In this document: positions 6,591 to 33,463 of the stretch, in pieces
How the letters are laid out: every line of letters begins with the position of its first letter
Numbering within the stretch: the stretch's first letter is position 1
Assembly: GCA_024276465.1 (NCBI GenBank)
Contig: JAJRXD010000167.1
Location: 1 to 47,224, forward strand
Source of the DNA: Deltaproteobacteria bacterium
GTDB lineage: Bacteria; Desulfobacterota; WTBG01; CAIYCZ01; CAIRTM01
Direction: 5' to 3'
DNA: 47,224 nt
The notes under the pieces: model-generated
Database searches by the model: none
Told to the model about the DNA's origin: nothing
Seen by the model: only the letters and a program-made list of their open reading frames with translations
Made by a program: the position numbers and the translations under genes

Positions 6591-7502
6591 TTATTTGACC
6601 AGTGCCCTGCCAGCCTCTTTTGCATCGGCCATGCCATTTTTATCCAGTCTGGCAGTGCCTTTTTCATAATATGCTTCCCAGAATCCTGATCCTGTAACAA
6701 CCTCTGCAGTATCCATTCCAAAAAGTTTAAGAATGAACATTGCATTTTCAACAACATGGTCATATGAATCTTCTGACGGCCATCCCCATGTAACTACCAG
6801 CGCTCCCTTTCTTTTTCTGCTTAGCTTCTGAAAATGACCTTTGGTTCTCAGAGCTTTAAGCCTGTCAAAAAAGGCAGATGCCTGGCTGCACTCCCTTCCT
6901 GTATAAACAGGAAAGCCCATCACAAAAGCGTCATATTCGATGAATTTTCTGTACAGATCAGTCATATCATCCTTGATGGCGCAGAATGTTTCAAGTTCCT
7001 TTTTCTCGCACGCCATGCACCCAATGCAGGGTGAAATCTTAAGATCTGAAATATATTTTTTTTCAATGTTGCACCCGGATTCACTTATGCCTTCCAAAAA
7101 CGCATCCATTATACAGTCAGTATTGCCGTTTTTTCTTGGGCTGGCCATGAGGGCAAAAACATTCTTAACCTGCACGTCAAGGTTCAGTGCCGGGATGTCC
7201 CAGCGCTTTATCCTGACTGCAGGGTTTTCTTTATCTACCTGTTTCTGGGAAGCAACTATCCCTGAAAGCTTTTCAGGAGATTTAAACTTCAGAATTACGG
7301 GTTCAAATGATTTGGCCAGTGTCTCTTCAAGTGCCTTCAGCAGAATGTCTTTTGTTGCCTCGCTGGAGCTCTGTTTTAAGAGCTGGTAATCTATCCCCTT
7401 CATGATTTTTTGCCTGCATGACTCCCTGCTGGCAAGGGGAAAAACTGAAATAAGTTTTTCCAGTACATCTTTTGCTTCATCTGAAAGTTTTATATTATTC
7501 AT
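6591..7502 (-). CDS. Iron-sulfur flavoprotein (NADPH-dependent FMN reductase family) with helical N-terminal domain
   Basis: This is a 303-residue cytoplasmic protein. Residues 113 to the end form a flavodoxin-like domain with the FMN-phosphate loop ASPRKNGNT (120-128). Four cysteines at 159, 162, 165 and 174 (C-x2-C-x2-C-x8-C) match the compact cluster motif of iron-sulfur flavoproteins (Isf), which pass electrons from ferredoxin through a 4Fe-4S centre to FMN. Residues 5-62 form a separate helical segment (LSDEAKDVLEKL...) that weakly resembles the PCP_red domain of dark-operative protochlorophyllide reductase; this match is tentative. The start has AGGAG seven bases upstream. It is the last gene of the six-gene minus-strand operon, 42 bases after the FAD protein, so it probably exchanges electrons with the ferredoxin or flavoprotein of that operon. 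Substrate unknown. Confidence 0.82.
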   Translation of the reverse strand: MNNIKLSDEAKDVLEKLISVFPLASRESCRQKIMKGIDYQLLKQSSSEATKDILLKALEETLAKSFEPVILKFKSPEKLSGIVASQKQVDKENPAVRIKRWDIPALNLDVQVKNVFALMASPRKNGNTDCIMDAFLEGISESGCNIEKKYISDLKISPCIGCMACEKKELETFCAIKDDMTDLYRKFIEYDAFVMGFPVYTGRECSQASAFFDRLKALRTKGHFQKLSRKRKGALVVTWGWPSEDSYDHVVENAMFILKLFGMDTAEVVTGSGFWEAYYEKGTARLDKNGMADAKEAGRALVK

Positions 7503-7544
7503 TTTTATTCTCCTGAAAAAATACAGTGTTTTGTGCTTCCAGCA

Positions 7545-8864
7545 TTACTTGTTCGGGAATCCCCATTTTTTCTGCTGCTCACCCAGATCCGCTGATTTAG
7601 TCCTCATCTCAATCAGCTTATCCATTATTTCAGGCCTTTCTTCCTGGATTTTCGGAAGAAGTTCAGCATAGGTTCTGCCGATTGAGCTGAAGAGAGTATA
7701 AAAATTCATTGTTGCCTTTATTGGCTTTGTAACAATAGAAGCAAGATAGTCAATTTCCTCACCAGACAGGAATTTTTGAAGCTCAGCAGAAGCAAATTCA
7801 ACGCTGCCATGGGGTTCGTAAAAGCTTTCATTCCACCACTTAAAATAACCTGAAAGGCCATCTTTATTATATTTTTTTTCAAGAAGTGCCTGGGTGACAG
7901 AATTGGCTGCCTTCCATCCTGTACAAAAGGATGCCATGTTGCTGATTTCTTTAAACCATGCGGCATCCCCTATTAAAAGAACATTATCCTTAAATGGTTC
8001 CTTAATGGGTGAATGTTCACTGACAATACAATTAATAGTTCCGACCCGGCTGGCCCTGGCAAACCATGAAGAGTAGGTTTTGTCTTCCTTAACAAAATTT
8101 TCAAGAACAGCATTCAAATTGGTGGCCGGGTTGTAGGAGAATGTGCTTAGATGAAACAGATCCTTCCTGTAGGTGGGTACAAGAGAAAAAGTTGCTTTGT
8201 CAGACAGTAGAAAATTAAAGCTTCCCGGGTCAATGGGAAATTCACCTTCCATTTCCCAGCAAAGGCTTCTCCATGTCCCATGAAATTTTCTCTCTTTGTT
8301 AAACCCGAGGACCCGGGCAATCCTTGAATTAACCCCGTCAGCAGCAATAACAAAACATGCTTCAAAGGTTTTATCCCCGGCCACTACCTGCACAGTATCA
8401 CCGCTTTTTTTGACATCAGTAACATTGGTACCGGGAAAAACATCCACATGGAACTTCTCAGCTTCAAGCAGCAGGCATTCCATCAGTTTATCCTTGCTTG
8501 TCGAAATTCCAAGGGCAACCTCATCACCCTTTTTTTTCACCTCTTCCCAGTCTCCAATGCAGATTCGATTACCTCCAGGAGAATGTATCTGGAACCCGTA
8601 AACACTTGACCACGGGCCGTCATAGGGTATGGTGAAACCGCAAACAGGAAAGCAGAAGCGTTTGTCACGGGTGTTATATTTCAGTATTTCCATAAAATGA
8701 TATTCGTTGATACCAAGTGCACCAGCATCAACCCTGGAAATTTTTGTCATATCTGTTTTTCTCTCAAGAAGCGCAACTTCAAGACCGTTCTCTCCGGCAG
8801 CTTTTGCAGCCATAAGCCCTGCAGGGCCTGCGCCAACGACTACCAGATCATATTTTTTTGACAT
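7545..8864 (-). CDS. FAD-dependent oxidoreductase, geranylgeranyl-reductase/FixC-like family
   Basis: This 439-residue flavoprotein has the N-terminal Rossmann motif VVVGAGPAGLMAA (8-20), a second FAD motif around AADGVNSRIARVLG, and the late GDAAW motif (VLLIGDAAWFKEISN) that binds the ribityl chain. The overall plan matches the geranylgeranyl reductase/FixC group, which reduces isoprenoid double bonds or quinones using ferredoxin or ETF electrons. There is no transmembrane segment. The start has GGGAG nine bases upstream. The neighbouring 58-residue ferredoxin gene lies 41 bases upstream, a FixC-FixX-like pairing that suggests ferredoxin as partner. The conserved Cys-rich or Trp catalytic loop of true lipid reductases cannot be verified by eye, so the substrate is open. 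Cofactor and family are fairly sure; the reaction is unknown. Confidence 0.82.
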   Translation of the reverse strand: MSKKYDLVVVGAGPAGLMAAKAAGENGLEVALLERKTDMTKISRVDAGALGINEYHFMEILKYNTRDKRFCFPVCGFTIPYDGPWSSVYGFQIHSPGGNRICIGDWEEVKKKGDEVALGISTSKDKLMECLLLEAEKFHVDVFPGTNVTDVKKSGDTVQVVAGDKTFEACFVIAADGVNSRIARVLGFNKERKFHGTWRSLCWEMEGEFPIDPGSFNFLLSDKATFSLVPTYRKDLFHLSTFSYNPATNLNAVLENFVKEDKTYSSWFARASRVGTINCIVSEHSPIKEPFKDNVLLIGDAAWFKEISNMASFCTGWKAANSVTQALLEKKYNKDGLSGYFKWWNESFYEPHGSVEFASAELQKFLSGEEIDYLASIVTKPIKATMNFYTLFSSIGRTYAELLPKIQEERPEIMDKLIEMRTKSADLGEQQKKWGFPNK

Positions 8865-8905
8865 GTTGATTTCTCCCTTTTTCTGATTAATAAAAAATCC
8901 CGTAA

Positions 8906-9082
8906 CTATTCCTCTTCAGCAGGGGCATTAACAGGACAGATTTTCACGCATATTTTACACTCAGTACATAAATCGTTGTCTATAACTACATTGTCATTAA
9001 TCATGCTAATGGCTGTTGCCGGGCATATGTCTATACATCCGCCGCATACCGTACAAACTTCAGTGTTAATCTTTATCACCAT
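8906..9082 (-). CDS. Small 2[4Fe-4S] ferredoxin
   Basis: This is a short gene of 58 codons. It has two classical cluster motifs: C10-x2-C13-x2-C16-x3-C20-P and C39-x2-C42-x2-C45-x3-C49-P. Together they make a bacterial dicluster ferredoxin, a low-potential cytoplasmic one-electron carrier. AGGAGG lies only two bases before the ATG, so the next codon (GTG at 9079) may be the true start; the protein changes by one residue. It sits between the Mo/W enzyme and the FAD protein with gaps of 51 and 41 bases, so it is the likely electron shuttle between them and the iron-sulfur flavoprotein. The acidic tail (APAEEE) is normal for such proteins. Confidence 0.92.
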   Translation of the reverse strand: MVIKINTEVCTVCGGCIDICPATAISMINDNVVIDNDLCTECKICVKICPVNAPAEEE

Positions 9083-9133
9083 GACCTCCTGTTCTGTTTA
9101 ATTATGAAAATTAAAAGTAAAAAATTATTTTTT

Positions 9134-11167
9134 TTATGCTTTACTAACACTGCAGAGCATTGACTTGAAAGCTGGAAATCCGGAAACAGGGTCTCTTTGC
9201 TGATCATCAGTAAGAAGATTGCAGTTTGCCTCTTCCCATCCGTGGGCAAGATGGACAACCCCGGGAAGTATGCCTTCACAGTATGATGCCTTAATTCTGA
9301 CTGATCCGCGTTTTGTCTTTACTATTGTTGAATCACCGTCCTTTATGTCCAGTGAAACTGCTGTTTCAGGATTGATCTGCATTAAAGGATCCGGAAAGAA
9401 TTTTCTGAGGCTTGGGATGTTTCTTTGCTGGGAATGGACAAACACAGGATACCTGCCGCCTGTAATAAGTATAAGGGGATACGCTTTTGCAGTTTCAGGA
9501 TCGCTCACAGGGCTTTCAGATGGTTCAACATACGATGGGAAGGGGTCGTATCCATTTGATTCCATTGATTTGGAATGGAGTTCAATTTTTTCGGAGTAGG
9601 TATAGAATCCATCACGCAGAATGCTGCCAGGTTCACGCGGATCAAGGATTCCACCGGGTAACTGTTTTAATTCCTGTACAGTGTGCCCTGAGGGTGAGAT
9701 CAGGAATTCTATTGCCTCACTGGCATCATTCCAGGGAAAGTGTTCTCCGTATCCCATAACCTTTGCAAGTTCCATCCATATTTTTGTGTCAGGCCATGGG
9801 CCCTGAGGCTCAAAGACTTTATTCTGAAGGATAAGGGGGTTTGTGGTAACCTCATCCCTTTCAAGAAACATTGCCGCAGGCAGTACAAGGTCAGCCTTTT
9901 TTGCAGTGGATGTCATGAACTGATCAATTACAACAGTAAACTCCATCTTATCCATCAGTTTTTCAACTTTTCCGCTGTTGGCCAGAATACTTAAAGGTGA
10001 TCCGCCAACTGAAACCATGCCACGTACTGGATAAGGGGTGTCGGATAATATCCTGTCAATTGCAGCAACTGCATGTGCCTGCTTAATCATCCCCACAAAC
10101 ATTGGATGTTCCTCTGCCCCAAGGGCCTTGTCCATGGAAAGATCAATTACATCCGGAGGTGTCAGGGGTGTCTGGTTCAGAAAAACATTGCCTCCCCTAA
10201 CGTCAATGTTACCTGTAATTGACATGAGTATGTTGATAGCCCGGATGTTCTGAACCCCGTTTATGTGGTGCTCAACACCCGTGCCGATTTTAAAGCATGC
10301 AGGTTTTGTTGTGGCAAGCAACCTTGCAGTTTCATTGATTGTATTGCGGGGTACCCCGGTTATCTGCTCTATTTTTTTAAGTGGATAATCCTTAATAAAG
10401 CTTTTAAAATCTTCAAACCCTGATGTATATTTTTCTATATAAGTTTTGTCTTCAAGGTTTTCCTCAAGGATGGCCCTTATAAATCCAAGCGCAAGTGCAC
10501 CGTCAGTTCCTGGTCTGGGCTGTATGAAAATATCTGACAGTTCAGCTGCTTCAGTTCTGCGAGGATCAACAGTGATAAATTTTGCTCCATTTTCTTTTCT
10601 TTTTTTAAGCAAACCGGTCATCTGAGGATAGCTTTTCCCAAGGCCACCGCTTGCCAGAGGATTTGAGCCCCATAAAACAATACAGTTGCTGTTTTCATAA
10701 TCAGGCAGGGGTATGTTGCCGAATGTCGCAAAGTTTGCAAGCATGAGGGCAAGAAAGCACTCACTTCCTGCAGAAGAAAGATTAACAGCTTCGTAAAGGT
10801 TGAAAAACCTTTTCATCATGAAGAACGCGAGGCGGTTTTTTACGTATGTCTGGCCATGGTAAATGAAAAGTCCCTCAGGTCCGTAACGGTCCTTAATGTC
10901 CTGAAGCCCCTCTGAGCATATTTTAAGAGCTTCATCCCATGAAATTTCTTTCCATGATCCGCCCTCTTTTTTTAAAGGATGCCTGAGCCGGTCCGGTGCG
11001 TTATAGATATTTTTTGCAGCCATACCCTTGGGGCATAAAAAACCCTTGCTGTACGGATGCTCCTTTAACCCCCGGATTTCAACAATATCATTGTCCTGTG
11101 CTGTTACCTGCATACCGCAGGAATGCTCGCAGACTCCGCAGAATGTGTTAATGGTTGTTGTTCCCAT
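9134..11167 (-). CDS. Molybdopterin (Mo/W-bisPGD) oxidoreductase, cytoplasmic
   Basis: This is a 677-residue member of the DMSO-reductase superfamily. The N-terminus holds a 4Fe-4S site with Cys10, 13, 17 and 45 (FCGVCEHSCG ... FLCPKG), then LRHPLKKEGGSWKEISWDEA, typical of the fold. Pterin-contact signatures include VLWGSNPLASG, FITVDPRRTEAA, QPRPGTDGALALG and, at the C-terminus, LITGGRYPVFVHSQQRN and a molydopterin-binding beta-barrel. The probable metal ligand is Cys137 in SSAGSECF, which would place it near the Cys-ligated thiosulfate/polysulfide reductase-like and formate dehydrogenase-like groups. There is no Tat signal, so it should stay in the cytoplasm, unlike the exported PsrA/PhsA enzymes. 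It lies 69 bases after the sulfite-reductase-like gene and 51 before the ferredoxin gene. Substrate unknown. Confidence 0.9.
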   Translation of the reverse strand: MGTTTINTFCGVCEHSCGMQVTAQDNDIVEIRGLKEHPYSKGFLCPKGMAAKNIYNAPDRLRHPLKKEGGSWKEISWDEALKICSEGLQDIKDRYGPEGLFIYHGQTYVKNRLAFFMMKRFFNLYEAVNLSSAGSECFLALMLANFATFGNIPLPDYENSNCIVLWGSNPLASGGLGKSYPQMTGLLKKRKENGAKFITVDPRRTEAAELSDIFIQPRPGTDGALALGFIRAILEENLEDKTYIEKYTSGFEDFKSFIKDYPLKKIEQITGVPRNTINETARLLATTKPACFKIGTGVEHHINGVQNIRAINILMSITGNIDVRGGNVFLNQTPLTPPDVIDLSMDKALGAEEHPMFVGMIKQAHAVAAIDRILSDTPYPVRGMVSVGGSPLSILANSGKVEKLMDKMEFTVVIDQFMTSTAKKADLVLPAAMFLERDEVTTNPLILQNKVFEPQGPWPDTKIWMELAKVMGYGEHFPWNDASEAIEFLISPSGHTVQELKQLPGGILDPREPGSILRDGFYTYSEKIELHSKSMESNGYDPFPSYVEPSESPVSDPETAKAYPLILITGGRYPVFVHSQQRNIPSLRKFFPDPLMQINPETAVSLDIKDGDSTIVKTKRGSVRIKASYCEGILPGVVHLAHGWEEANCNLLTDDQQRDPVSGFPAFKSMLCSVSKA

Positions 11168-11236
11168 CAGTTTTCTCTCTTTTTAATATGGATGAAAGAC
11201 AGATCATTTTTTTAAAGCAGCTTTTCTGCACTTAAG

Positions 11237-12106
11237 TTACCGTATTGCATCAGGGCCTTCAGTGTCAATAATAGTTCTTAATGATTCCCCTGGCCTGGCA
11301 TTCCTCAATTTTGCAATGGCGTTTTTAAGTATTGTAAGGACTCTGTCCCTGGAAGTAAAGTCTTCGATAGTCTTTGCGAGGCAAGGATCGCGTCCTCCTG
11401 CTCCCCCGGCAATTACACGGAAGCCCCTTTCATTTACAGTCAGCTTGCCTGCAGGGCAGTCTCTGGCACACAGTTCGCATTGAACGCATGTTTTTCTGTT
11501 AATGACAGGTCCGTCATCTGTGAGGTGAATGGACTTGTCAATGCACATTTTCAGACAGTTCCCACACTGTGTGCACTCTTCATCAGTAATGTCAACCCTG
11601 TGCTGCATTATAATGCCGAAATCCTTCATGTATGGACTGACACAGCAGTTTGGACAACCTGTCATTCCAACAGTAAATCGGCTGGCCCCATGCAGTGCGA
11701 CCACAGCAAGGTCAGCCATAATTTCAGTGAGTTTCTCTTTTTCCATAACAGATTTTATTGACCGCATCATATCCTTGAGCGCTTCTCGCACCAGTTCACT
11801 GTTTTCGCCGTATTTAGTAAAACAGGTATCAATAAAAAACAGAGCGCTCTCATCATCGAAAAAAAGTTCATCTTCAAGCTCGGGAGCTGGCCCTGTTCCG
11901 TTAAGAAAGGCTTTAAACTGTTCATATTTTTCCCTGCCCATAAAATCCGCATACATTTTTTCAGTCTCTTTCAACACTTCTGCAGTGACATGATCAAGGC
12001 CTTTATGCCTTGCAGTTTTTTCAGACTGCAGGCGGGCATAAGGGCTCATCATGGGTGGTATCGGCAGCATTTCATGGATCTTCTCAGCGTCTTTTTCCCA
12101 TTTCAT
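11237..12106 (-). CDS. Sulfite/nitrite-reductase-like half domain fused to dicluster ferredoxin, with PCP_red-like N-terminus
   Basis: This is a 289-residue cytoplasmic protein. Residues 1-55 (W3, E8-A-type start, then ARHKGLDHVTAEVLKE) resemble the PCP_red helical domain of protochlorophyllide reductase. Residues about 130-170 carry VGMTGCPNCCVSPYMKDFGI, the second cysteine block of sirohaem sulfite/nitrite reductases. A ferredoxin insert follows with C178/181/184/188 and C207/210/213/217, then VIAGGAGGRDPCLA, the usual C-terminal reductase signature. The layout recalls AsrC, but the first C-x5-C pair that also holds the 4Fe-4S/sirohaem centre is not visible; only Cys95 occurs in the right area. 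A normal coupled sirohaem site is therefore doubtful. The ATG at 12106 has GGGA seven bases upstream and replaces a longer unsupported start. It is 49 bases downstream of the Tat gene. Confidence 0.78.
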   Translation of the reverse strand: MKWEKDAEKIHEMLPIPPMMSPYARLQSEKTARHKGLDHVTAEVLKETEKMYADFMGREKYEQFKAFLNGTGPAPELEDELFFDDESALFFIDTCFTKYGENSELVREALKDMMRSIKSVMEKEKLTEIMADLAVVALHGASRFTVGMTGCPNCCVSPYMKDFGIIMQHRVDITDEECTQCGNCLKMCIDKSIHLTDDGPVINRKTCVQCELCARDCPAGKLTVNERGFRVIAGGAGGRDPCLAKTIEDFTSRDRVLTILKNAIAKLRNARPGESLRTIIDTEGPDAIR

Positions 12107-12155
12107 AATGCTTTCCCTTTCTGTCTGGTTCCAGGTGATAACCACATTAAACTAA

Positions 12156-13142
12156 TCATGATATAAGCCCCAGTTTCTTTTTAATAGAAGCTACAGTATA
12201 TGTGAATGGGGGCACAGCACGCTGCCCAAAACCATTCGCTGTTACAGCATTATTAAACTCCTCAACCACATTGTAAATACATCCGATGAAACTGGTTGAA
12301 CCACCATGATACGCAGCATGTGACAGTGCCAGATAGTATCTCCAGTCCTCAAATTTTTTAACAGGGGAGGGGTCATTGTAATGGACAAGGAAGGGGATTG
12401 TTCTGATCTCCCAGCACGGAGCTGAAGCTGTCTGCCATATGTCAAGAAACAGCACTGTTGCAACAGGATTTTCCATCATGTTCTGGAAAGTATGGGTTTC
12501 CTTAAAGCCAAAAGCTTCAAAACCAGTGAACAGTTCCAGGGACCCCAGAGCTGTTCTGTCCCACAGTGATTTTTCATTGTAAATTTCTATTCTCCATGAC
12601 CTGAGATCTTCGGCAAGGTCCGGGTCCCTGGCATCAGCCCTTTCCTTAAAGCTCTCCATTGCCGTGATAAGTTCCTTCATGTATTCATCCCTGGGAAGAA
12701 GGGCCATTCCCTTTATTGCAGTGTTAAGTGAAAACGAACTGTCTCCTCTTCCTTTCCTGTTTCCACATGTTGCCACTGTTGGGTGATGGTGCCCGCCATT
12801 TGCCATGGGATGGTCAGCTTCTCCAGCCATAATAGAATACATGTCCAGTTTATCTTTTATGTACCAGTCAAAAAAATTATCATCAAGTTCTGCCAGCCTG
12901 TAAGTGTGCCACCAGTGGTCAACCCTTGCCTTAAGGGTAGCGTCATTAATTTTATCAGCTTTTACTGTGCTGTGAACAAAATACTGCTCTCCATCGGGCC
13001 CTGTTATCCAGTAGTCCTTTTTTGAATTCGGTTCTCTGCTAAGTGCAGTCTTTAAGCTGGAAAGGATGGTACCAGACAAAAGTGATGCCCCGCCCCATTT
13101 CAGGAAAGACCTTCTTTTGATACCTTTGGTATTATTCTCCAT
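12156..13142 (-). CDS. Tat-exported protein of unknown function, paralogue A (GGHHHP family)
   Basis: This is a 328-residue protein with a twin-arginine signal (KRRSFLKWGGASLLSG, residues 9-24), so it should be exported folded, probably with a cofactor. The start at 13142 is fixed by AGGGGA seven bases upstream; the longer frame to 13229 would bury the Tat motif. I do not recognise the family. It shares ordered blocks with the protein at 13675-14838: ARVDxxW and YRLAELD (72-87), NGGHHHP (115-121), GDSSFSLNTAIKG (133-145), SLWDRT with GSLEL (192-204), THTFQNMMENP (216-226), YHGG (278-281), VVEEFNN (292-298) and VPP (310-312). The clustered histidines suggest a metal site. It is the first gene of the six-gene redox operon. 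An enzymatic or electron-accepting periplasmic role is inference only. Confidence 0.8.
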   Translation of the reverse strand: MENNTKGIKRRSFLKWGGASLLSGTILSSLKTALSREPNSKKDYWITGPDGEQYFVHSTVKADKINDATLKARVDHWWHTYRLAELDDNFFDWYIKDKLDMYSIMAGEADHPMANGGHHHPTVATCGNRKGRGDSSFSLNTAIKGMALLPRDEYMKELITAMESFKERADARDPDLAEDLRSWRIEIYNEKSLWDRTALGSLELFTGFEAFGFKETHTFQNMMENPVATVLFLDIWQTASAPCWEIRTIPFLVHYNDPSPVKKFEDWRYYLALSHAAYHGGSTSFIGCIYNVVEEFNNAVTANGFGQRAVPPFTYTVASIKKKLGLIS

Positions 13143-13260
13143 TGTTAGTTCCCCTGTTACGATAATACTCACAGCAACAATGTTGAGGATTTCGGGAAAA
13201 GCTGATTTATACCCCTGAAATCCGGGCATCCTTTTAGAAACGACGCTGCATTTCTGACAG

Positions 13261-13549
13261 GGAAAACAGAACCTGTCATTTCGAGTTCTGACATTAGTCA
13301 GTGGAAAAATTTTTTACTGGTTCTAACAGTGGCTGAACGAAAAGTCCTGATTCAGGTTAAAATCTGATCAATAATTTTCTGTAGGAGCGCCTTCAGGCGC
13401 GATATTACGCAGCAACAGGTCTGTTTTTCGCGGCTAAAGCCGGCTCCTGCATACGCCGCGCTAACAAAAACAGGGTTTTCGTTCAGCCTCTAATTAAAGA
13501 AGATGAGATTTTTCGTCGTGAGTTCCTCGAAATGACAATCTTGTTTTCC
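13261..13549. mobile_element. Three nested MITE-like palindromic elements
   Basis: The outer arms at 13261-13285 and 13526-13549 are inverted copies (GGAAAACA...TGTCATTTCGAG). Inside lies a second element at 13328-13492. Its ends, AGTGGCTGAACGAAAAGT and the inverted GTTTTCGTTCAGCCTCT, match the element at 16818-16974. Inside that is a third palindrome around GTAGGAGCGCCTTCAGGCGC and CGGCTAAAGCCGGCTCCTGC (about 13381-13450). None encodes a protein. This stack separates the two Tat paralogues and occupies most of the 532-base gap 13143-13674. Confidence 0.65.
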
Positions 13550-13550
13550 T

Positions 13551-13647
13551 ACAATTCAAAACAGCCCGGCCACTTTGCTGTAAGCTTTACCAGCTTAGCT
13601 GCAGCATTCTGCAATCCCCGACCAGGTCGGGGATTGCTTTGAATTGT
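13551..13647. repeat. Hairpin with perfect 13-bp stem inside a wider inverted repeat
   Basis: GCAATCCCCGACC at 13611-13623 pairs perfectly with 13625-13637 around a single base. The pair ACAATTCAAA (13551-13560) and TTTGAATTGT (13638-13647) forms wider arms. It lies 38 bases beyond the stop codon of the upstream Tat gene and could end or stabilise its transcript. No T-run follows on the minus strand, so a classical intrinsic terminator is not supported. Confidence 0.5.
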
Positions 13648-13674
13648 GCCTCCTGCTTTTTGATTTCAGCAGTA

Positions 13675-14838
13675 TTAAACAGGCAGCTTTAATTTTTTAA
13701 TTACCTCGATTTTTTCCTCTTTGGAAAGTTTTTTCCTGTTTCTGTTCAGCTTTACATTTGCCATATTTGATGCAGTGGTTCCGTAGTTATAAGGCGGTAC
13801 CACACGTTTGCCCCTGCCATAGGGATCATAGCTTGGGGTGGTGTTGAACTCCTCAACCACAAGGAAGATATTTGTTGCAATATCGCAGTTTCCACCATGG
13901 TACCTGCAGTGTGCGTCATTGATGTAAGTGGAGATTTTCTGCTCATATTCACTGTTAGCGGGGTTGTGATGGGCAATAAGCCAGCAGAACCCCTTAAATG
14001 TCCATTCCGGTATAAGTCCCTCAATCCCTTCCAGAAAATTCTGGCCTCCCTCAGTGCTCCAGAATCCCATGTATGTAAGTGTCGACATGGGGTTGGCCAT
14101 GATATTCTGGAAAGTTTTGGTTTCATCGAAGCCGTAACCACCGGCTGTATCTTCTGCATTGATCGGGCGGCCAGAGTAAAGTTCAAGGGTTCCCATTCGG
14201 GTCTTGTCCCACAGGCTTCTGTCCTGGTAAAGGTCTTTCCTGAGCTTAAACAGGTCTACAGGCAGGTTCGCTTTGCCAGCCTCTGAAGCAGCATAGATGT
14301 TGTCCACTTCAGTATTTATAATATCAATACTTTCCGCCTTTGGTACAATGGTGAAGCCCTTAACCGCAGTATTGAGATGAAAATCACTGTCACCCCTTCT
14401 TCCGAATTTTCTACCATAAGTTCCCAGTATGGGATGGTGATGTCCACCGTTTGGTATGCCGGTTTCATCAATTTCATTGTTAAAATAAGCAATGAGCTGA
14501 TCATAGTACCAGAGCTTTTCAGATATCCACCATTCATGGAATTCACTGTCATACTCTGCCAGTTTATATTTTTTCCACATGCCGTCCACCCTGGCAGTAA
14601 CTATTCCCTTATCATTTGCTTTGTCTGTCTTGATATTTTTTGGAACAAAGTACAGATTGCCTTCCGGGTCGGTTTGCCATTGTGTTGAAGATCCGGAAAT
14701 CTTAGGTTCACCGGCATTTACGTTCCCCCATTTGGCAAAATAAGGGAAAGAGATTCCCAGCCCCAGTGAAGCCCCGGTTAGCTTTAAAAAAGAACGCCGC
14801 TTGATACTGTTTTCTTTAGAATGTTTTTTTTCCTTCAT
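13675..14838 (-). CDS. Tat-exported protein of unknown function, paralogue B (GGHHHP family)
   Basis: This is a 387-residue protein with a twin-arginine signal (IKRRSFLKLTGASLG, 12-26) and a strong start: AGGGAGG five bases before the ATG. It is a longer paralogue of the protein at 12156-13142. Shared blocks are ARVDGMW and YKLAEYD (82-97), PNGGHHHP (129-136), GDSDFHLNTAVKG (149-161), SLWDKT and GTLELYSG (208-223), KTFQNIMANP (241-250), YHGG (313-316), VVEEFN (327-332) and VPP (347-349). It has an extra Lys-rich tail of about 30 residues. The conserved histidines and Tat route suggest a folded, metal- or cofactor-bearing periplasmic protein. I recognise no named family. It lies between its probable regulator and the redox operon; whether transcription runs through the repeat-filled gap to the next gene is unclear. 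Confidence 0.8.
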   Translation of the reverse strand: MKEKKHSKENSIKRRSFLKLTGASLGLGISFPYFAKWGNVNAGEPKISGSSTQWQTDPEGNLYFVPKNIKTDKANDKGIVTARVDGMWKKYKLAEYDSEFHEWWISEKLWYYDQLIAYFNNEIDETGIPNGGHHHPILGTYGRKFGRRGDSDFHLNTAVKGFTIVPKAESIDIINTEVDNIYAASEAGKANLPVDLFKLRKDLYQDRSLWDKTRMGTLELYSGRPINAEDTAGGYGFDETKTFQNIMANPMSTLTYMGFWSTEGGQNFLEGIEGLIPEWTFKGFCWLIAHHNPANSEYEQKISTYINDAHCRYHGGNCDIATNIFLVVEEFNTTPSYDPYGRGKRVVPPYNYGTTASNMANVKLNRNRKKLSKEEKIEVIKKLKLPV

Positions 14839-14986: not shown

Positions 14987-16339
14987 TTATTTAATAGATA
15001 AAAGGTAAGATCTCAGGTTGGCGCTTTTGTTTTTTATTCCAAATTTTTTTCTGATATTGTTTCTGTGAAATTCGATTGTTTTAGATGATAAATTCATTAA
15101 TTCTGCAATTTCTTTACTTCTTTTACCATCCTTAACAAGATTTGCTACTTTGATTTCTGAAGGCGTAAGGTTTAAAAAACTGGAACCTAATCTGTGTGGA
15201 AATGGAGAAATTATATCTTTAAGATTTGATTCAATGTTGTTCAGGCAGCGTTTCTGTTCATGATTCAGTTCACTGGTATTCAATTTTTTAACATAGGGTA
15301 AAACAAGTTTCTCAACATTGAATAAAACTTTCTCCTCTATCTCTGTTTTATCCTCATCTCTTTTATTCAGGAGAACTCGCAGGGCTGTATTTACCTCCTC
15401 AAGATTATGGGTTTGAACCTCCATCTCTTTTTTGCTTTTTAATAATGCCTCCTCAGCCTGTTTACGTTCAGTTACATCACGCATTATTGCCATAAAAATG
15501 TATTCAGCTCCTGACTTTAACAGAGAAACCGAGAATTCAGATGGAAACTCACTGTTGTCTTTTCTGGCCCCGACACCCTGAAGCACTCTTCCTTCAAAAA
15601 ACAGATGTCCGGCTGAAATTGCCTGCCTGAATATTTGCATCTGTGCTTTATGGAATCGCTGTGGGACTATTAGTAAAAATGACTTGTTCAGAACCTCATT
15701 GACAGGATATCCGAAAATTTCTTCAGCTCGACGGTTCCAGGATTTAACATTTCCTCTGCTGTCAAATGTCATTATTGCATCGTTTGCTGTTTGAACAAGG
15801 GACCGGTAACGATCTTCACTCTCACGCAGAGACTCTTCGGCTCTTTTCCGGTCGGTAATATCTTCTCCTGAGCAGATAATCTCTGTGATCCGGTTATTTT
15901 TGTTTCTTATAAATGCATTGTGCCAGGCAATAATTTTAATTTTTCCGCTTTTAGCGAGAAACCGGCCCTCAAAATACCCGACTGAGCCTATATCTCCCGC
16001 CATCAGTTTTTTATAGGAAATTTTAGGATGTGCAGCTTTGTTTGGTTTATCATGCAGGCTGAAAAGAATATCAGGCCATTTTTTGTTAACAATCTGCTTC
16101 TCAGTGCATTCAAAAACCTCACAGGCCTTTCTGTTGGCTAAAGTAACCCTTCGATTTTCATTAAGAGCTATGAAAATCACTCCTGCAAGGTCAAGATACT
16201 GCTTTGCTTTTTTTTCCTCTAATGCCTCAACTGTCAGTCTGCGATCTGTTTCCCGTGCCTCAAGTCCTGCAATGTACAGCCGCAGTTTAGAGATCTCATT
16301 TTCAAGTTGTTCTTTTGTCTTGTTTTTGTCAGCAATCAT
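14987..16339 (-). CDS. PAS-PAS-LuxR transcriptional regulator
   Basis: This is a 450-residue soluble protein. An N-terminal coiled coil (about 5-45) is followed by PAS 1 (about 45-165, ending EIICSGEDITDRKRAEE) and PAS 2 (about 170-290, with GYPVNEVLNKSFLLIVP and ending MRDVTERKQAEE). A second helical linker follows. The C-terminal LuxR/GerE helix-turn-helix spans about 388-445 (LTPSEIKVANLVKDGKRSKE, then SSKTIEFHRNNIRKKFGI). It has no kinase or receiver domain, so the PAS domains probably sense a ligand or redox state and drive DNA binding directly. This architecture is common in Desulfobacterota. It lies directly upstream of and co-oriented with the Tat gene, so control of the redox operon is a reasonable inference. 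The Shine-Dalgarno is weak. Confidence 0.88.
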   Translation of the reverse strand: MIADKNKTKEQLENEISKLRLYIAGLEARETDRRLTVEALEEKKAKQYLDLAGVIFIALNENRRVTLANRKACEVFECTEKQIVNKKWPDILFSLHDKPNKAAHPKISYKKLMAGDIGSVGYFEGRFLAKSGKIKIIAWHNAFIRNKNNRITEIICSGEDITDRKRAEESLRESEDRYRSLVQTANDAIMTFDSRGNVKSWNRRAEEIFGYPVNEVLNKSFLLIVPQRFHKAQMQIFRQAISAGHLFFEGRVLQGVGARKDNSEFPSEFSVSLLKSGAEYIFMAIMRDVTERKQAEEALLKSKKEMEVQTHNLEEVNTALRVLLNKRDEDKTEIEEKVLFNVEKLVLPYVKKLNTSELNHEQKRCLNNIESNLKDIISPFPHRLGSSFLNLTPSEIKVANLVKDGKRSKEIAELMNLSSKTIEFHRNNIRKKFGIKNKSANLRSYLLSIK

Positions 16340-16426: not shown

Positions 16427-16687
16427 TTACTGCTGTTTGTCAAACTTATGACAGAACAGACAGCGGTACTTGGGTGGGTGTTCCTCGGACAAAGGCATGT
16501 CATCCGGGTTGTGACAATCCCTGCAGAATTTTTCAGCTGCCTTTTTCCCTTCAGCATGTTCGATATCTCTGAACTCATTGTGGTTATCGTCAGCAGGTAC
16601 ATGGACGGTTGTTTCAGGAGGAGCAAACCAGAAAAACAAAACTATTAAAATACCTATGGCAATAAAAGCCAGATCACTTTTTCTCAT
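16427..16687 (-). CDS. Small membrane-anchored dihaem c-type cytochrome
   Basis: This is an 86-residue protein. One N-terminal hydrophobic helix (about 6-23) acts as a signal anchor and is followed by a periplasmic tail of about 60 residues with two haem c motifs, CRDCH and CLFCH. AGAGGA lies nine bases before the ATG. Its size suits a simple periplasmic electron relay tethered to the inner membrane. It lies 87 bases upstream of the PAS-LuxR regulator on the same strand and may share its transcript. It could connect the exported Tat proteins to the membrane redox chain, but that is inference from position only. Confidence 0.85.
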   Translation of the reverse strand: MRKSDLAFIAIGILIVLFFWFAPPETTVHVPADDNHNEFRDIEHAEGKKAAEKFCRDCHNPDDMPLSEEHPPKYRCLFCHKFDKQQ

Positions 16688-28425: not shown

Positions 28426-29226
28426 CTACAATATTCGGGTTTTAAAATAAAAAATAATACCTGAAATTGCTGCAAGATAACAACAGATCAGTAAAACGAT
28501 AAAAAACGGGCTCTTAAAAATATCTGATTTGTGAATTTTCCCAAACAAAAAACTATCAGTCGGTACTCCATGGCAGTTAACACATTTTTTTGGCTTCAGT
28601 TCATCATTTCCATGCCTGCCAACATCAAAGTGGCAGTCAGTACATCGCCTGGTGCTGAAGTCACATGACATATTAACTTTTCCATGTCCCTTAACCCGGG
28701 TTGCAATAAATGATAGAAGTGAATCATGGGCTTCATCTTTGTGGCACTTTCCACAGGTGGTGGACAAATTGTCAGGGTGTACAGAAGACGCCGGGTTGTC
28801 AGCTGTCAGCACATCATGCATGCTGTGGCAGTCATAGCACTGAGGTGCGTTGGGGTTGCCTGCTTTTAACAGCATTCCGTGCCTGCTTTTTTCATATTCT
28901 TTAAGAGCTTCTTCATGGCATCCACCGCACTTCACATCTGGGATGCCTTCCTTAGGATGACTGTCTGTTTTTACCCCTTCATGACATTCAACACATGTGT
29001 ATTCCATTTCAGCATGAACAGAACCCAGAAATGCTTTTTTATCAACATACAGGCTGTGGAGTGTTCCTGAATCATCAACCCTGGTAAGGTGGATATCTGT
29101 GTGGCATTCAATACATTCGTCTATTTCCTGGGATAACACTGATGAGTGGTCTGAAAAAAGCACAGAAGATAAAAGAAATATCATAATTATTAGCGTTTTT
29201 ATTGTGGTAATAATCATTTTATGCAT
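28426..29226 (-). CDS. Heptahaem c-type cytochrome with C-terminal membrane anchor
   Basis: This 266-residue periplasmic cytochrome has a signal sequence (about 5-33), seven CxxCH motifs (CIECH, CVECH, CGGCH, CYDCH, CGKCH, CTDCH, CVNCH) and a C-terminal transmembrane helix (about 238-262). The spacing and His-rich stretches are typical of multihaem electron-transfer proteins of anaerobes. GGAG lies about 11 bases before the ATG. The gene begins nine bases after the NarI/HdrD fusion gene ends, so it is the last gene of the complex operon. It is probably the periplasmic electron entry or exit of that complex. The exact named family is not clear to me. Confidence 0.9.
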   Translation of the reverse strand: MHKMIITTIKTLIIMIFLLSSVLFSDHSSVLSQEIDECIECHTDIHLTRVDDSGTLHSLYVDKKAFLGSVHAEMEYTCVECHEGVKTDSHPKEGIPDVKCGGCHEEALKEYEKSRHGMLLKAGNPNAPQCYDCHSMHDVLTADNPASSVHPDNLSTTCGKCHKDEAHDSLLSFIATRVKGHGKVNMSCDFSTRRCTDCHFDVGRHGNDELKPKKCVNCHGVPTDSFLFGKIHKSDIFKSPFFIVLLICCYLAAISGIIFYFKTRIL

Positions 29227-29234
29227 ATGATGAT

Positions 29235-31157
29235 TTACTCCATGGCTTTTACAATAAATTCAGCTATGTCTAAACTTTTTACAGAGTCACTTTTTTCCCT
29301 GACCTTTAATCCATCATCTATCATGGTCAGGCAGTACGGGCAGGCAGTGGCAATTGCATCAGGGTTCTTGTCAAGAGCCTGGTCTGTTCTCATCTCATTA
29401 ATTCTTTTGCCAATATCTTCCTCCATCCACATCCTTCCACCCCCTGCCCCGCAGCAAAAGCTTTTGTCTCTGTTTCTGTCCATCTCAACCAGGTTTATCC
29501 CGCTGATTGACTGAAGGACATCTCTTGGATAATCATAAATATCATTGTAGCGCCCCAAAAAGCATGAGTCATGGTATGCAACTTTCATGTTTTCTGAAGA
29601 TTTCAGTTTTATGCTGCCGTTGCTGATAAGTTTCATTAGAAATTCACTGTGGTGCAAAACTTCAAATTCACTCCCGTACATGGGGTAATCATTTTTAAGG
29701 CTGTTAAAGCAGTGAGGACAAATGGTCAGTATTTTGTTTACATTGTAGTTTTTCATTACTTCTATGTTGGTTTGCGCCAGTGTTTCATACAGATACTCGT
29801 TCCCAAGCCTTCTTGCAGAATCACCACAGCAGCCTTCCTCTGCGCCAAGAACAGCGAAATTTACACCTGCTTTCCGGAGAATTTGCGTTAAGGCAATTGA
29901 AACTTTTTTATACCGATCGTCAAAAGCTCCTGCACAGCCAGGATAAAAAAGAATATCAAAAGAATCAGCTTCAGAAGCAGTTTTAACCCCCAACTCTTTT
30001 GTCCAGTCTCCCCTGGTATGTGCCCCCACACCCCAGGGATTGCTGTTGTTCTCCATGTTTTTGAAAACAGCCTGAACCTCACCTGGAAAGTTCGGCTCAG
30101 TCATAACAAGGTAACGACGCAACTCAATTGTTTTATCAACTGTGGTATCAAAAACAGGACACTGTGAATGGCAACTGAGACACATTGTGCATGACCAGAG
30201 GGTTTCATGGCTTACAATGTCGCCAATAAGGCTTTTATCTTTATCCTTAGATCTATCAGCTGTTTTTTCCTCCATATGTTTTTTCATGTCCTGGAGCAGT
30301 TTTTTGGGGGACAGAGGTTTATCGCTTAAATGTGCAGGGCAGTTGTCCTGGCACCGACCGCATCGTGTGCAGGCATCAAGGTTGAAAAGCTGGGTGGTTG
30401 TGAACTCTTCGATGTTTGACACCCCGTAAGTTTCTGCTGTTCCAAAATCAATTCCCCTGAGCTGTCCCGGGGAACCGTATTTTCTGAGAAAAATGTTAAG
30501 CGCAGAGGTAAATATATGGAGAAATTTGGTGTATGTAATGCATGCAATTAGTGCAAGAACGAGAAAAAAATGAATCCTCCAGAAAAAACTGTGCAGAAAC
30601 AGTTGTAACTGCGTGCCAAACGGCAAAAAGGCATATGAAAAAACTGCTCCTACAGGTGCCCACCGGGCATCTGCGCCAGTTATACTTATGCGCAGCCCCT
30701 CTATGCAGAAGCCTAAAGAAATTATTACAAAAAGCCAGACAAGGGCAATAGCATCATCCTTTCCGGTATCGTCAAGACGCTCAGGTTTCTGTATGTATCT
30801 TCGAAATGCTGCCAGCAACACAGCTATCAAACCTGCTGCTCCAAGAAGATCAAGAAATACAGAAAAATAATTGGCAAACACAACAGGCAGGTGCAGTGTT
30901 GCCTGGGAGGCAAAAATAACAAGAAGGGGAATCAGGCAGGCGAAGAATATGAAAAAATGCATCAGCCCGGGGTACAATTCTTTTAGAATTTTTGCCTGGC
31001 CAATGCCGTATATTAAAAAATCTTTTATCCTGAGGCCGATATTTTCAATATGCTCAGCTTTCTGTCCGATCTTCCATAGCCTTGCTCTTCTTACAAGACC
31101 GGTTATGCAGATAATTAAAGCAATTACAATCAGCAAAGGATCTATTAAAGCAAACAT
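29235..31157 (-). CDS. NarI-like cytochrome b domain fused to HdrD-like iron-sulfur protein
   Basis: This is a 640-residue membrane protein. The first about 235 residues form a nitrate-reductase-gamma-like haem b domain with five or six helices. Two 4Fe-4S motifs follow (CTRCGRCQDNCP and CTMCLSCHSQCP), then two CCG domains (FYPGCAG ... EEGCCGDSARR, and HDSCFLGRYND ... FCCGAGGGRMWMEE) that in HdrB/HdrD hold noncubane clusters. It is thus a single-chain equivalent of DsrM+DsrK or HmcE+HmcF. Related fused proteins also serve as ETF:quinone oxidoreductases (FadF type). GAGGAG lies nine bases before the ATG. It is probably the quinone-reactive and cytoplasmic module of the five-gene complex. The electron partner in the cytoplasm is unknown. 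Confidence 0.92.
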   Translation of the reverse strand: MFALIDPLLIVIALIICITGLVRRARLWKIGQKAEHIENIGLRIKDFLIYGIGQAKILKELYPGLMHFFIFFACLIPLLVIFASQATLHLPVVFANYFSVFLDLLGAAGLIAVLLAAFRRYIQKPERLDDTGKDDAIALVWLFVIISLGFCIEGLRISITGADARWAPVGAVFSYAFLPFGTQLQLFLHSFFWRIHFFLVLALIACITYTKFLHIFTSALNIFLRKYGSPGQLRGIDFGTAETYGVSNIEEFTTTQLFNLDACTRCGRCQDNCPAHLSDKPLSPKKLLQDMKKHMEEKTADRSKDKDKSLIGDIVSHETLWSCTMCLSCHSQCPVFDTTVDKTIELRRYLVMTEPNFPGEVQAVFKNMENNSNPWGVGAHTRGDWTKELGVKTASEADSFDILFYPGCAGAFDDRYKKVSIALTQILRKAGVNFAVLGAEEGCCGDSARRLGNEYLYETLAQTNIEVMKNYNVNKILTICPHCFNSLKNDYPMYGSEFEVLHHSEFLMKLISNGSIKLKSSENMKVAYHDSCFLGRYNDIYDYPRDVLQSISGINLVEMDRNRDKSFCCGAGGGRMWMEEDIGKRINEMRTDQALDKNPDAIATACPYCLTMIDDGLKVREKSDSVKSLDIAEFIVKAME

Positions 31158-31262
31158 ATTTTATTCATCTCCTCAGCTATACTTTATCAGTTAATCAGTA
31201 TCAAAGATTAATAAAGCAGCAAACAGAGGCTGTTATTTAATCAGATGAACAGGCGTATAAAA

Positions 31263-32435
31263 CTACCCCTCTGCCTTTGGAACTTCTTTCTGCCACACAG
31301 GAAGTATCAGGTTGAATACATACATGGTTATAAAAGGCAGGGCAACAAGAACAACGGCCATGGCAAGTCCCTCACGTCCAAAGAAGGGGAGGTTGTAAGT
31401 TGTAAGTCCTCTCAGGCTTTTGGAGAAAAGCTGGCCGCCTATTACTACGTTCCAGCGCATGGCAAGAACCTGAATGAGGATTAATGCTGATGAAAAAATG
31501 CCAAGAGTGTTTCTTGTTGAATCTTTCATGTTTGTAAGCGACACAATGCCCAGTAGAATCATGGGAATTACGGAACAGATAGACATTTGAAGTATTATGT
31601 AGCTGAATCCCAGTCTTTCAGTCAGCATCCGTGAAATAATATGCCATTCCTCATGTGCTTCATAGTACATAGTCAGGATTTCAAGCATTTCAAGTGTCAG
31701 ATCAACTATAAAAAACCCCCATAGATATTTATAGAGACATTTAAGACAGTTGTTGTCAGGCTTCATCCCTTTTGCTTTCATCACAATCCAGTAGCAGATA
31801 ATCAGAACCGCAATTCCTGACACAATGGCTGACATAAGGAAAATTACCGGCATCAGGGGCGTTGACCACCATGGATTTGACTTGAGGGATCCGAAAAGGA
31901 ACCCGACATAACCATGCAACAGGCATGCTGATGGTATCCCTATGGCAGCAAGGAATAAGATTAGCTTACGGTCAATCGCCAGGGTTTTTTCAGACAGGTC
32001 ATAGTTGCCTAATGCAAGAAACCAGTAAAAAAGCTTTTTAAGACCAGTGCTTTCCAATGCCATGCTGACTATTTGAGGCCTGAAAACAAACCATATTTCA
32101 AGAAGAACAAGAACCAGATAGAAGGAATATATGTAACCAAACCCTGACATGGCTGAAGTAAACTTGGGGGTAAACATGATGTTAAAAGCCCTTTCAGGAT
32201 GGCCAAGATGGAAGAGAAGAGGTGTGCAGGCAAAGTTCAGAAAGCAGAATGCCCCGACAAGAGAGAACTTTGCTATTGGTTTAAGTTCTTTAACCCCAAA
32301 CACATGATAAAGTGATGATACAATAAATGCGCCAGCCACAAGGCCCGTTATATAGGGATAGATCACTATCATAATGCTCCAGTGTACCTCTATTTCATTC
32401 GGGAATAAAAAGCCGCTGGTAACTATTTCATGCAT
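31263..32435 (-). CDS. NrfD/HmcC/DsrP-like polytopic membrane subunit
   Basis: This is a 390-residue integral membrane protein with about ten hydrophobic helices, of the NrfD/PsrC family (YITGLVAGAFIVSSL near the start; LGHPERAFNI, a hallmark of the family's quinone-side loop). In Hmc, Dsr, Tmc and Psr complexes this subunit anchors the iron-sulfur subunit and interacts with menaquinone. Its ATG overlaps the stop codon of the iron-sulfur gene (TAATG) and has AAGGAGG upstream, so the two are translationally coupled. The NarI/HdrD gene follows after 105 bases. Confidence 0.92.
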   Translation of the reverse strand: MHEIVTSGFLFPNEIEVHWSIMIVIYPYITGLVAGAFIVSSLYHVFGVKELKPIAKFSLVGAFCFLNFACTPLLFHLGHPERAFNIMFTPKFTSAMSGFGYIYSFYLVLVLLEIWFVFRPQIVSMALESTGLKKLFYWFLALGNYDLSEKTLAIDRKLILFLAAIGIPSACLLHGYVGFLFGSLKSNPWWSTPLMPVIFLMSAIVSGIAVLIICYWIVMKAKGMKPDNNCLKCLYKYLWGFFIVDLTLEMLEILTMYYEAHEEWHIISRMLTERLGFSYIILQMSICSVIPMILLGIVSLTNMKDSTRNTLGIFSSALILIQVLAMRWNVVIGGQLFSKSLRGLTTYNLPFFGREGLAMAVVLVALPFITMYVFNLILPVWQKEVPKAEG

Positions 32436-33175
32436 TATCGCACCTCCTTGTCCAGACCCAGATACATTGTCATGGGCTCGTTGCCTGTCTCAGGCTTTAG
32501 AATCTGCAACATCTTTTCCTTTACTGTTTTATGTACAGGGCTTTCAGGGTCGTCTATCCTGCCAAACTGACGGGCCCCGGTCGGACAGACAAGAACGCAG
32601 GCAGGTTTGTAACCCTTTTTAATTCTGTGATAGCACCAGGTGCACTTGTCTGCTGTTCTGGTTTCGGGATTTATAAAGCGGGCACCATAGGGGCAGGCCT
32701 GAACACAGTAACTGCAACCCACACAGTGCTTATCATCCACCAGCACAACACCCTCCTTTGACACATACGTTGCTACAACAGGACACACCTGAACGCAGTT
32801 TGGTTTTTTGCAGTGATTGCACAGCTTTGGGACAAAAAAAGCTTTTTCAACTTTGTGCTTGAATTCCTGCGGTTTGAATCCGTCTGAACCTCCGTCAGGT
32901 GAATCTACAATAACCTCTCCATTTTCCAGAATGTGGTAGCGTTCTACCCATGTCCTGTAGAAATCATTCGGGACACTGTTTTCTTTTATGCATGCATTAA
33001 CACATTTGCCGCATCCTATGCACTTTTCAATGTCCACAATAAATGCAAATATGTGGTTTTTGTTTTTGGAAGCATGTGCTGAACCCGGTAACAATGGAAA
33101 TACTGAGATTAATAAACCGCCTCCCAGTATGCTCCAGCCAGTTTGTTTAATAAAATTTCGCCGGTCCTTGTTCAT
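32435..33175 (-). CDS. Tat-exported ferredoxin-type iron-sulfur subunit (HmcB/DsrO/NrfC-like)
   Basis: This is a 246-residue protein with a twin-arginine signal (DRRNFIKQTGWSILGGG). Four 4Fe-4S motif groups follow: CIGCGKCVNAC, CNHCKKPNCVQVCP, CVGCSYCVQACPYGARF and CTWC...CVLVCPTGA. This is the standard periplasmic electron-transfer subunit paired with an NrfD membrane protein. AAGGAT lies before the ATG. It is upstream of and overlaps the NrfD gene by one base. The 288 bases upstream (33176-33463) show no gene and no clear repeat. Confidence 0.94.
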   Translation of the reverse strand: MNKDRRNFIKQTGWSILGGGLLISVFPLLPGSAHASKNKNHIFAFIVDIEKCIGCGKCVNACIKENSVPNDFYRTWVERYHILENGEVIVDSPDGGSDGFKPQEFKHKVEKAFFVPKLCNHCKKPNCVQVCPVVATYVSKEGVVLVDDKHCVGCSYCVQACPYGARFINPETRTADKCTWCYHRIKKGYKPACVLVCPTGARQFGRIDDPESPVHKTVKEKMLQILKPETGNEPMTMYLGLDKEVR

Positions 33176-33463
33176 ATAGATGTCATCCTTGTTATTGTAT
33201 CTTTCAGGGTATAAAACCTTAGCCTTTCCCGTTAAAGGCGGTATCTTTGAAAGGCAGGGAATGTTAACAGTATAAATCTAATTTATTGTAATGTCATTTT
33301 GCTCAGCCCCAGAAGAATTTTTTTCATTTAGCCCCGGTGCATCGGGAGACTGAATCCACCCCGTCACATCAGGGTGCTAATTCTTATTAAGGCAGTTGTT
33401 TTTGTAATACAATATATGGATCGTAGAGCTCAGCCTGATTCGGTGGGCTTGTTGGAATATGAT

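Follow-up and report, generated by a model that had tools for sequence, protein, structure and literature searches.

A directon that joins known anaerobic enzyme families to an orphan family of Tat-exported proteins

Why does a bacterium place a molybdenum or tungsten protein, part of a sulfite-reductase domain, a ferredoxin and two flavoproteins in one row with an exported protein that has no Pfam relative? The row is found on contig JAJRXD010000167.1 of a Deltaproteobacteria bacterium, a metagenome-assembled genome (MAG) of 4.1 Mb in 181 contigs. The window analyzed here is this entire contig (C143, 47,224 bases). Six open reading frames (ORFs) on its minus strand follow one another in the order TatA2-SirL-MoA-Fdx-GGR-ISF, and they join known anaerobic enzyme families to an orphan exported family in one real directon. 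Our comparison with related genomes indicates that the directon looks like an assembly made in this lineage from families that mostly live apart elsewhere; it appears to be lineage-specific and not a conserved redox system.

TatA2 (12156-13142, minus strand, 328 amino acids) heads the directon and carries an RRSFLK signal for twin-arginine translocation (Tat). It is followed on the same strand by SirL (11237-12106, 289 amino acids), in which a 2[4Fe-4S] ferredoxin is inserted into the second half of a sulfite-reductase domain, and by MoA (9134-11167, 677 amino acids), a molybdenum/tungsten bis-pyranopterin-guanine-dinucleotide (Mo/W-bisPGD) protein that resembles acetylene hydratase and has no export signal. 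Then come Fdx (8906-9082, 58 amino acids), a 2[4Fe-4S] ferredoxin with two CxxCxxCxxxC motifs (Fer4, 4.5e-13), GGR (7545-8864, 439 amino acids), a flavoprotein of the geranylgeranyl-reductase superfamily, and ISF (6591-7502, 303 amino acids), an iron-sulfur flavoprotein, all on the minus strand. The intergenic gaps measure 49, 69, 51, 41 and 42 bases, and by our informal judgement five successive same-strand gaps this short exceed chance. A second member of the TatA2 family, TatA1, is encoded upstream of the directon and has the same RRSFLK signal. An earlier note on this DNA, made from its letters without database searches, had described the row of six genes 41 to 69 bases apart and had pointed out that both Tat proteins carry an export signal and MoA does not; both statements hold. 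The families that it named are borne out by Pfam and NCBIfam as NIR_SIR with Fer4, Molybdopterin, two Fer4 domains, FAD_binding_3 within the geranylgeranyl-reductase superfamily, and FMN_red or Flavodoxin_2.

Is this set of genes kept together in related bacteria? We compared the places of five families in 17 genomes of the same class, none of them of the same genus, covering 150 of the 166 class matches for GGR, 24 places for ISF, the best 25 for SirL, the 5 closest for MoA and 21 for Tat (from 22 rows, one of which was a second fragment; for DUF1329, discussed below, two such fragments were likewise omitted, and Fdx was left out). Eight of the 17 genomes fall short of 90% completeness and 5% contamination, and many contigs are shorter than 20 kb, so that some synteny may be missed; neighboring genes were called with a simple ORF finder, and Pfam was run on some of them. 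Among these places, and outside the window contig, members of 8 of the 10 family pairs never come as close as 15 kb to each other. The two exceptions occur once each: a MoA homologue lies 1.6 kb from a Tat homologue in another genome of the class (G010:C477), divergent and with other genes between them, and a Tat gene on contig C172 of the source genome itself lies near a SirL paralogue of 30% identity. The earlier note had suggested that the set co-occurs as a system, and had named homologues lying mostly apart as the outcome that would refute it; mostly apart is how they lie, and no conserved multigene system emerged from these fragmented assemblies. Because contigs are short and no genome is of the same genus, the scattering speaks for the class and not for the genus.

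This pattern bears directly on the idea of a new conserved redox system, in which a reductive half in the cytoplasm would be coupled to binding or oxidation in the periplasm. A Tat-exported protein does stand beside cytoplasmic redox proteins here, and the MoA and Tat homologues 1.6 kb apart in G010 would fit such a coupling, but the scattered homologues largely refute it: no conserved synteny was seen in the 17 class genomes, the Tat homologues sit amid mixed genes, and by family the directon contains no membrane electron carrier. We consider such a system very unlikely. The scattering is what one would expect if the directon had been put together by chance or recently from independent paralogues that serve different processes and have at most a promoter in common. 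Besides the rarity of co-occurring pairs, this explanation has on its side that Tat, SirL, GGR and ISF each have paralogues in the source genome and that SirL homologues of 64-73% identity, found in 5 other class genomes, have other neighbors; MazG, sigma-54 activator, PolX, lipocalin or molybdate-transporter genes adjoin them or lie one gene away, and several are at contig ends. The five consecutive gaps of 41 to 69 bases on one strand nevertheless speak for co-expression; by family, redox or metal proteins make up five of the six products, and the pairing of a ferredoxin with GGR recurs elsewhere. Chance or recent assembly is to us a serious possibility, though short of probable.

If the six genes do work together, the individual proteins may indicate at what. 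MoA matches Molybdopterin, Molydop_binding and Fe4S4 in Pfam, and its best match in the PDB is acetylene hydratase (2e7z, 292 bits; next 205). A profile of five MoA relatives also placed acetylene hydratase first in the PDB with 364 bits, followed by a match of 301 bits, and scored 266 bits against thiosulfate reductase. Acetylene hydratase is a non-redox tungsten enzyme. Since this is the nearest solved relative, MoA need not be a redox enzyme; the earlier note had the Mo/W family right, and the redox role that it assigned to MoA is not evident. MoA keeps the four N-terminal cluster cysteines and, like three close relatives, the metal-ligand cysteine at the position of Cys141. At the position of Asp13 of acetylene hydratase, MoA and the three close relatives have Glu (4 of the 4 with a known N-terminus; the fifth, from G013, is without its N-terminus). 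Glu is found there in 0 of 9 wider homologues, which have S, P, I, Y, F or H instead (a tenth, L099, was left out of the comparison), and four formate dehydrogenases have G or A. According to a review, Asp13 is highly conserved in the subfamily, and Glu is tolerated at this position but Ala is not (PMC12096430). Because of the Glu, we file MoA as acetylene-hydratase-like and not as a member of the subfamily. Formate dehydrogenase was considered and rejected, since MoA has Cys-Phe where the alignments of four formate dehydrogenases have Cys/Sec-His and reaches 340 of 666 bits against TIGR01591. MoA is thus an acetylene-hydratase-like protein that probably acts on another substrate.

SirL matches NIR_SIR (2.4e-9) and Fer4 in Pfam, and its best PDB match, over residues 142-244, is the F420-dependent sulfite reductase (7np8, 5.5e-16). 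The ligand set of sirohaem sulfite and nitrite reductases is Cx5C ... Cx3C; SirL has the Cx3C (C151 and C155) and a single upstream cysteine, C95. Twelve cysteines are invariant in 6 of 6 homologues, namely, C95, C151, C154, C155 and the eight cysteines of two intact ferredoxin motifs (numbering of the 289-residue protein), and the N-terminal stretch is PCP_red-like, below the cut-off of the model. What stands of the description as sirohaem-like in the earlier note is the Cx3C half of the motif; the first cysteine pair is missing, for which reason we rejected the assignment of SirL as a canonical sirohaem reductase. These matches could also be taken to mean that the directon serves the chemistry of sulfur or nitrogen oxyanions, with SirL as the sulfite or nitrite reductase partner and MoA as a reductase of the thiosulfate or polysulfide type. 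SirL indeed resembles the F420-dependent sulfite reductase, and MoA scores against thiosulfate reductase too, but SirL has C95 alone in place of the upstream Cx5C, and the profile of MoA relatives favors acetylene hydratase over thiosulfate reductase by 364 to 266 bits. An oxyanion pathway therefore seems unlikely to us.

GGR reaches 77 of 158.8 bits against TIGR02032 (1.6e-21), below the cut-off, and matches FAD_binding_3 (1.9e-14). It has both marks of the flavin adenine dinucleotide (FAD) fold, GxGxxG as GAGPAG and LxGD as LIGD. At a threshold of 1e-30 its subfamily has 3-19 matches in each of 14 of the 17 class genomes and none in 41 other genomes; at 1e-60 it is absent from all 379 genomes of the phylum outside the class that we searched. 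Of the 29 GGR-family genes examined, 4 have a ferredoxin motif no more than 400 bases away, one in the window and three at other loci. ISF combines an FMN_red match (9.6e-16; also Flavodoxin_2) with CxxCxxCx9C, the compact cysteine motif that is the hallmark of iron-sulfur flavoproteins, and its relatives at 1e-30 occur in 12 of 58 genomes, all within the class. Tandem arrays of four to six GGR-family genes were seen in six genomes (G001:C15, G002:C243, G003:C130, G004:C25, G005:C7 and G007:C95). In the two arrays that were scanned (L119 and L121), MarR genes lie between or beside the GGR-family genes, with CCG and FAD_binding_4 at L119 and a Nuo51-type gene at L121.

The Tat-exported proteins are a different matter, as their family is an orphan. 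TatA1 and TatA2 have no Pfam or NCBIfam family match at E 0.01, and when 17 members of the family were run against Pfam with E up to 1, the TAT-signal model alone rose above noise (13 of 17; the TAT_signal match of TatA2 is weak). In the PDB, neither the two proteins nor a profile of the family found a convincing chain match. The family has the conserved blocks NGGHHHP, RGDSxF, ETxTFxN and YHGG, some of which are lost in the most distant members. It is present in 10 of the 17 class genomes, and in a draw of 395 genomes from the phylum it was found in the same 10, all among the 16 listed as this class, and in 0 of the 379 others; a scan of named genomes yielded 8 Tat-family loci, whose MAGs bear the titles Thermodesulfobacteriota, Pseudomonadota, Proteobacteria or bacterium. 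The source genome has six Tat-family genes from seven matches. We rejected a count of two for the C171 and C132 pieces, which overlap identically at the contig ends and are therefore one gene. TatA1 (13675-14838, minus strand, 387 amino acids) had been called a second copy of the Tat protein in the earlier note. The gene is there as described, but "copy" is loose for two proteins of 38-39% identity from different subfamilies. In the tree, TatA1 groups with the C172 paralogue of its own genome (support 100/99) and TatA2 loosely with a C8/C125 group (83/92), and on this ground a recent tandem duplication was rejected as the origin of the pair. The neighbors of Tat-family genes that we scanned are mixed and include methylmalonyl-CoA mutase, Na/H exchanger, ABC exporter and porin genes, as well as genes for a MopE-like protein, multihaem cytochromes, a peroxiredoxin and a transposase. 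The MopE-like copper-binding protein or multihaem cytochromes adjoin some distant Tat-family genes (L033 12535-13629, L035 6782-8041 and L038 5206-6537), which hints at metal or redox roles.

One neighbor of the Tat family recurs. A PAS sensor is the next gene of at least 150 amino acids in 5 of 11 TatA1-type loci, versus 17 of the 562 genes of this size in the loci retrieved (binomial P ~2.6e-4, for a pattern seen before it was tested; the co-occurrence counts in this work likewise followed the patterns). The split C171/C132 gene is counted as TatA1-type by its place in the tree, and several Tat loci are without one flank. In the window, a PAS-PAS-LuxR regulator with PAS and GerE domains in Pfam (14987-16339, minus strand) is encoded upstream of TatA1, as the earlier note had said. 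This adjacency suggests that the TatA1 subfamily probably belongs to sensing. It also raises the possibility that the TatA proteins in general act in the periplasm as partners of PAS regulators, with a sensory or ligand-binding role, and are unrelated to any catalysis by the directon. We take this explanation seriously without holding it to be probable, as the adjacency of TatA1-type genes to PAS sensors speaks for it, but a PAS sensor adjoins 0 of the 11 loci of other subfamilies, that of TatA2 among them.

TatA1 probably has its own transcript, outside the six-gene directon, because the 532 bases between TatA1 and TatA2 contain a perfect 13-bp hairpin directly past TatA1 (13611-13637) and a repeated element of about 165 bases. 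The latter (13328-13491) resembles a miniature inverted-repeat transposable element (MITE), with 16-base inverted ends that are 94% complementary. Promoter-like and terminator-like sites are barely commoner in the region than in shuffled sequence (22 versus 16.6, standard deviation 4.2, and 12 versus 9.2, standard deviation 3.3, respectively). The MITE-like element has 40 matches in the source genome, the window copy included (40 of 144 candidates scored), the others with 78-98% identity. Copies lie within 200 bases 3' of 3 of the 5 fully assembled Tat-family genes of this genome (window 13328-13491, C172:27230 and C8:14485); chance would give this with a probability of ~2e-5 even with all 144 candidates as copies, in a post hoc calculation. 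We rejected a common duplicated block around the Tat genes, since the four 3' flanks compared have essentially only the repeat element in common.

What, then, could the directon do? It may serve to convert an apolar unsaturated substrate, perhaps a terpenoid, in the cytoplasm and without oxygen; this is the role to which we lean, as a tentative suggestion that comes close in likelihood to the assembly of independent paralogues. MoA, with tungsten or molybdenum and of the acetylene hydratase kind, would add water or a hydroxyl group at an unsaturated carbon; GGR, with Fdx feeding or draining electrons, would reduce or desaturate a C=C bond; ISF and SirL would carry electrons; and the TatA proteins would be periplasmic binders of metal or ligand. 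The guess of an apolar substrate is made because the GGR family is expanded in the class and partly linked to modules like AmeABCD. In the source genome, GGR paralogues follow MMPL-DUF1302-DUF1329-YCF48 genes on C116 (L125) and MMPL-YCF48 genes on C138 (L123). AmeABCD of Castellaniella defragrans has this gene content (PMC6394551), with COG4447 taken as the YCF48-like family. The closest relative of ISF (50%, G004:C42) lies within an operon of YCF48-, MMPL-, ISF, DUF1302- and DUF1329-type genes, in which MMPL and DUF1329 were assigned by profile and the other two by BLAST to C116. DUF1329 has 1-18 matches in each of the 17 class genomes and none in 14 control genomes. AmeABCD-like operons that include GGR-family or ISF genes span 1051-10541 of L125 and 5673-13538 of L129. 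According to two papers on C. defragrans, deletion of AmeABCD lowers monoterpene tolerance (PMC6394551), and limonene metabolism requires two FAD proteins and a ferredoxin, with a LuxR-family gene in the ctm cluster (PMC4109377).

A number of results weigh against this suggestion. The full six-gene set occurs in one genome only among those searched, and the window contig has no AmeABCD-type module, its genome's DUF1329 matches being on C5, C116, C24 and C17. GGR lies within 10 kb of DUF1329 for 32 of 150 genes but for only 10 of 109 clusters, where the upper-bound expectation is 4.0, and within 15 kb for 12 clusters against 5.9 expected, several of which are one conserved array; the expectations are rough (copies times window over genome size), and at the level of clusters the link is modest and weak. 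The other families show no such proximity beyond 1 of 24 for ISF (expectation 1.0), with 0 of 25 for SirL, 0 of 5 for MoA and 0 of 21 for Tat. GGR lacks the catalytic motif PxxYxWxFP, so that an isoprenoid substrate is not implied; according to a review, this motif is not highly conserved among archaeal GGR paralogues either (PMC10821996). Other GGR relatives adjoin isocitrate dehydrogenase, thiamine pyrophosphate enzyme, methyltransferase and DUF169 genes. Among the scanned neighbors of MoA relatives (FmdE, sulfur transport, binding protein, SpoU, M50 and thioesterase genes) there is no terpenoid link. MoA has Phe in place of Ile142 of acetylene hydratase and no Trp at the positions of Trp179, Trp293 and Trp472, as read from an alignment with offset numbering. 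We take these four to be pocket residues, and with them changed, the substrate of MoA and even a hydratase chemistry are guesses. For the Tat proteins, an AlphaFold2 model of TatA1 made with 9 other sequences reached a mean predicted local distance difference test (pLDDT) score of 46.7 and gave no usable fold. The most specific version of our suggestion, an undescribed O2-independent route in which a carboxylate-bearing tungsten MoA would hydrate or hydroxylate an apolar unsaturated compound, a ferredoxin-coupled GGR of the greatly expanded, class-restricted family would reduce or desaturate it and a new Tat metalloprotein family would bind or sense in the periplasm, is improbable in our estimate. 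The earlier note knew of no described pathway with this set, and none turned up in our literature search, nor did a paper that joins acetylene hydratase with geranylgeranyl reductase or geranylgeranyl reductase with DUF1329; the search left subscription journals mostly outside, which makes this weak evidence of novelty.

Two further features of the window deserve mention. Upstream of the PAS-PAS-LuxR gene lies a gene (16427-16687, minus strand) for a small protein with a hydrophobic N-terminus and two CxxCH motifs, a candidate dihaem c-type cytochrome for which Pfam gave no match. Farther along, positions 28426-33946 encode in a row a multihaem protein, a 640-residue HdrD/DsrK-like protein, a 390-residue NrfD-like protein, a Tat iron-sulfur protein and a cytochrome c, names that were given by reading the sequences and not by search; the row resembles a membrane redox module of the Dsr/Hdr type. 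PADLOC gave no match for 4 proteins.

Whatever the operon does, a Tat-exported, histidine-containing orphan family with strongly conserved blocks and no relative by sequence in Pfam or the PDB, restricted among the genomes sampled to a single small class of MAGs, is of interest in its own right. The class-restricted expansion of GGR, with 3-19 members per genome and some in tandem, in genomes rich in DUF1329 points to a guild of bacteria that may deal with apolar compounds under anaerobic conditions. Should MoA prove to be a hydratase for a substrate larger than acetylene, the single known non-redox branch of Mo/W enzymes would gain another member.

How does the directon compare with systems that are already known? 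The acetylene hydratase of Syntrophotalea (Pelobacter) acetylenica (2e7z) is the best PDB match of MoA over most of its length, and the two have in common the cluster cysteines, the tungsten-ligand cysteine, a Lys after the last cluster cysteine and a carboxylate at the Asp13 position; they differ in the Glu that replaces Asp, in the Phe at Ile142 and at the three Trp positions. SirL has the CPN-CC motif and the inserted 2[4Fe-4S] ferredoxin of the F420-dependent sulfite reductase (7np8), but it aligns over ~100 residues, is short and is without the first sirohaem cysteine pair. GGR falls below the TIGR02032 cut-off and is without PxxYxWxFP, unlike the archaeal geranylgeranyl reductases, yet these enzymes and their paralogues belong to the same superfamily, with GxGxxG, LxGD and a ferredoxin gene beside some members (PMC10821996). 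The AmeABCD/ctm monoterpene island of C. defragrans (PMC6394551, PMC4109377) differs from the window, which is without a DUF1329 module, and its CtmAB are of the phytoene dehydrogenase type, which GGR, by its matches, is not. Nor did a monoterpene enzyme turn up in the window, although no search was aimed at one. However, some GGR and ISF relatives in the class sit with MMPL, DUF1302, DUF1329 and YCF48-like genes as in the island, and the window, like the ctm cluster, combines a flavoprotein and a ferredoxin with a LuxR-family gene (PMC4109377).

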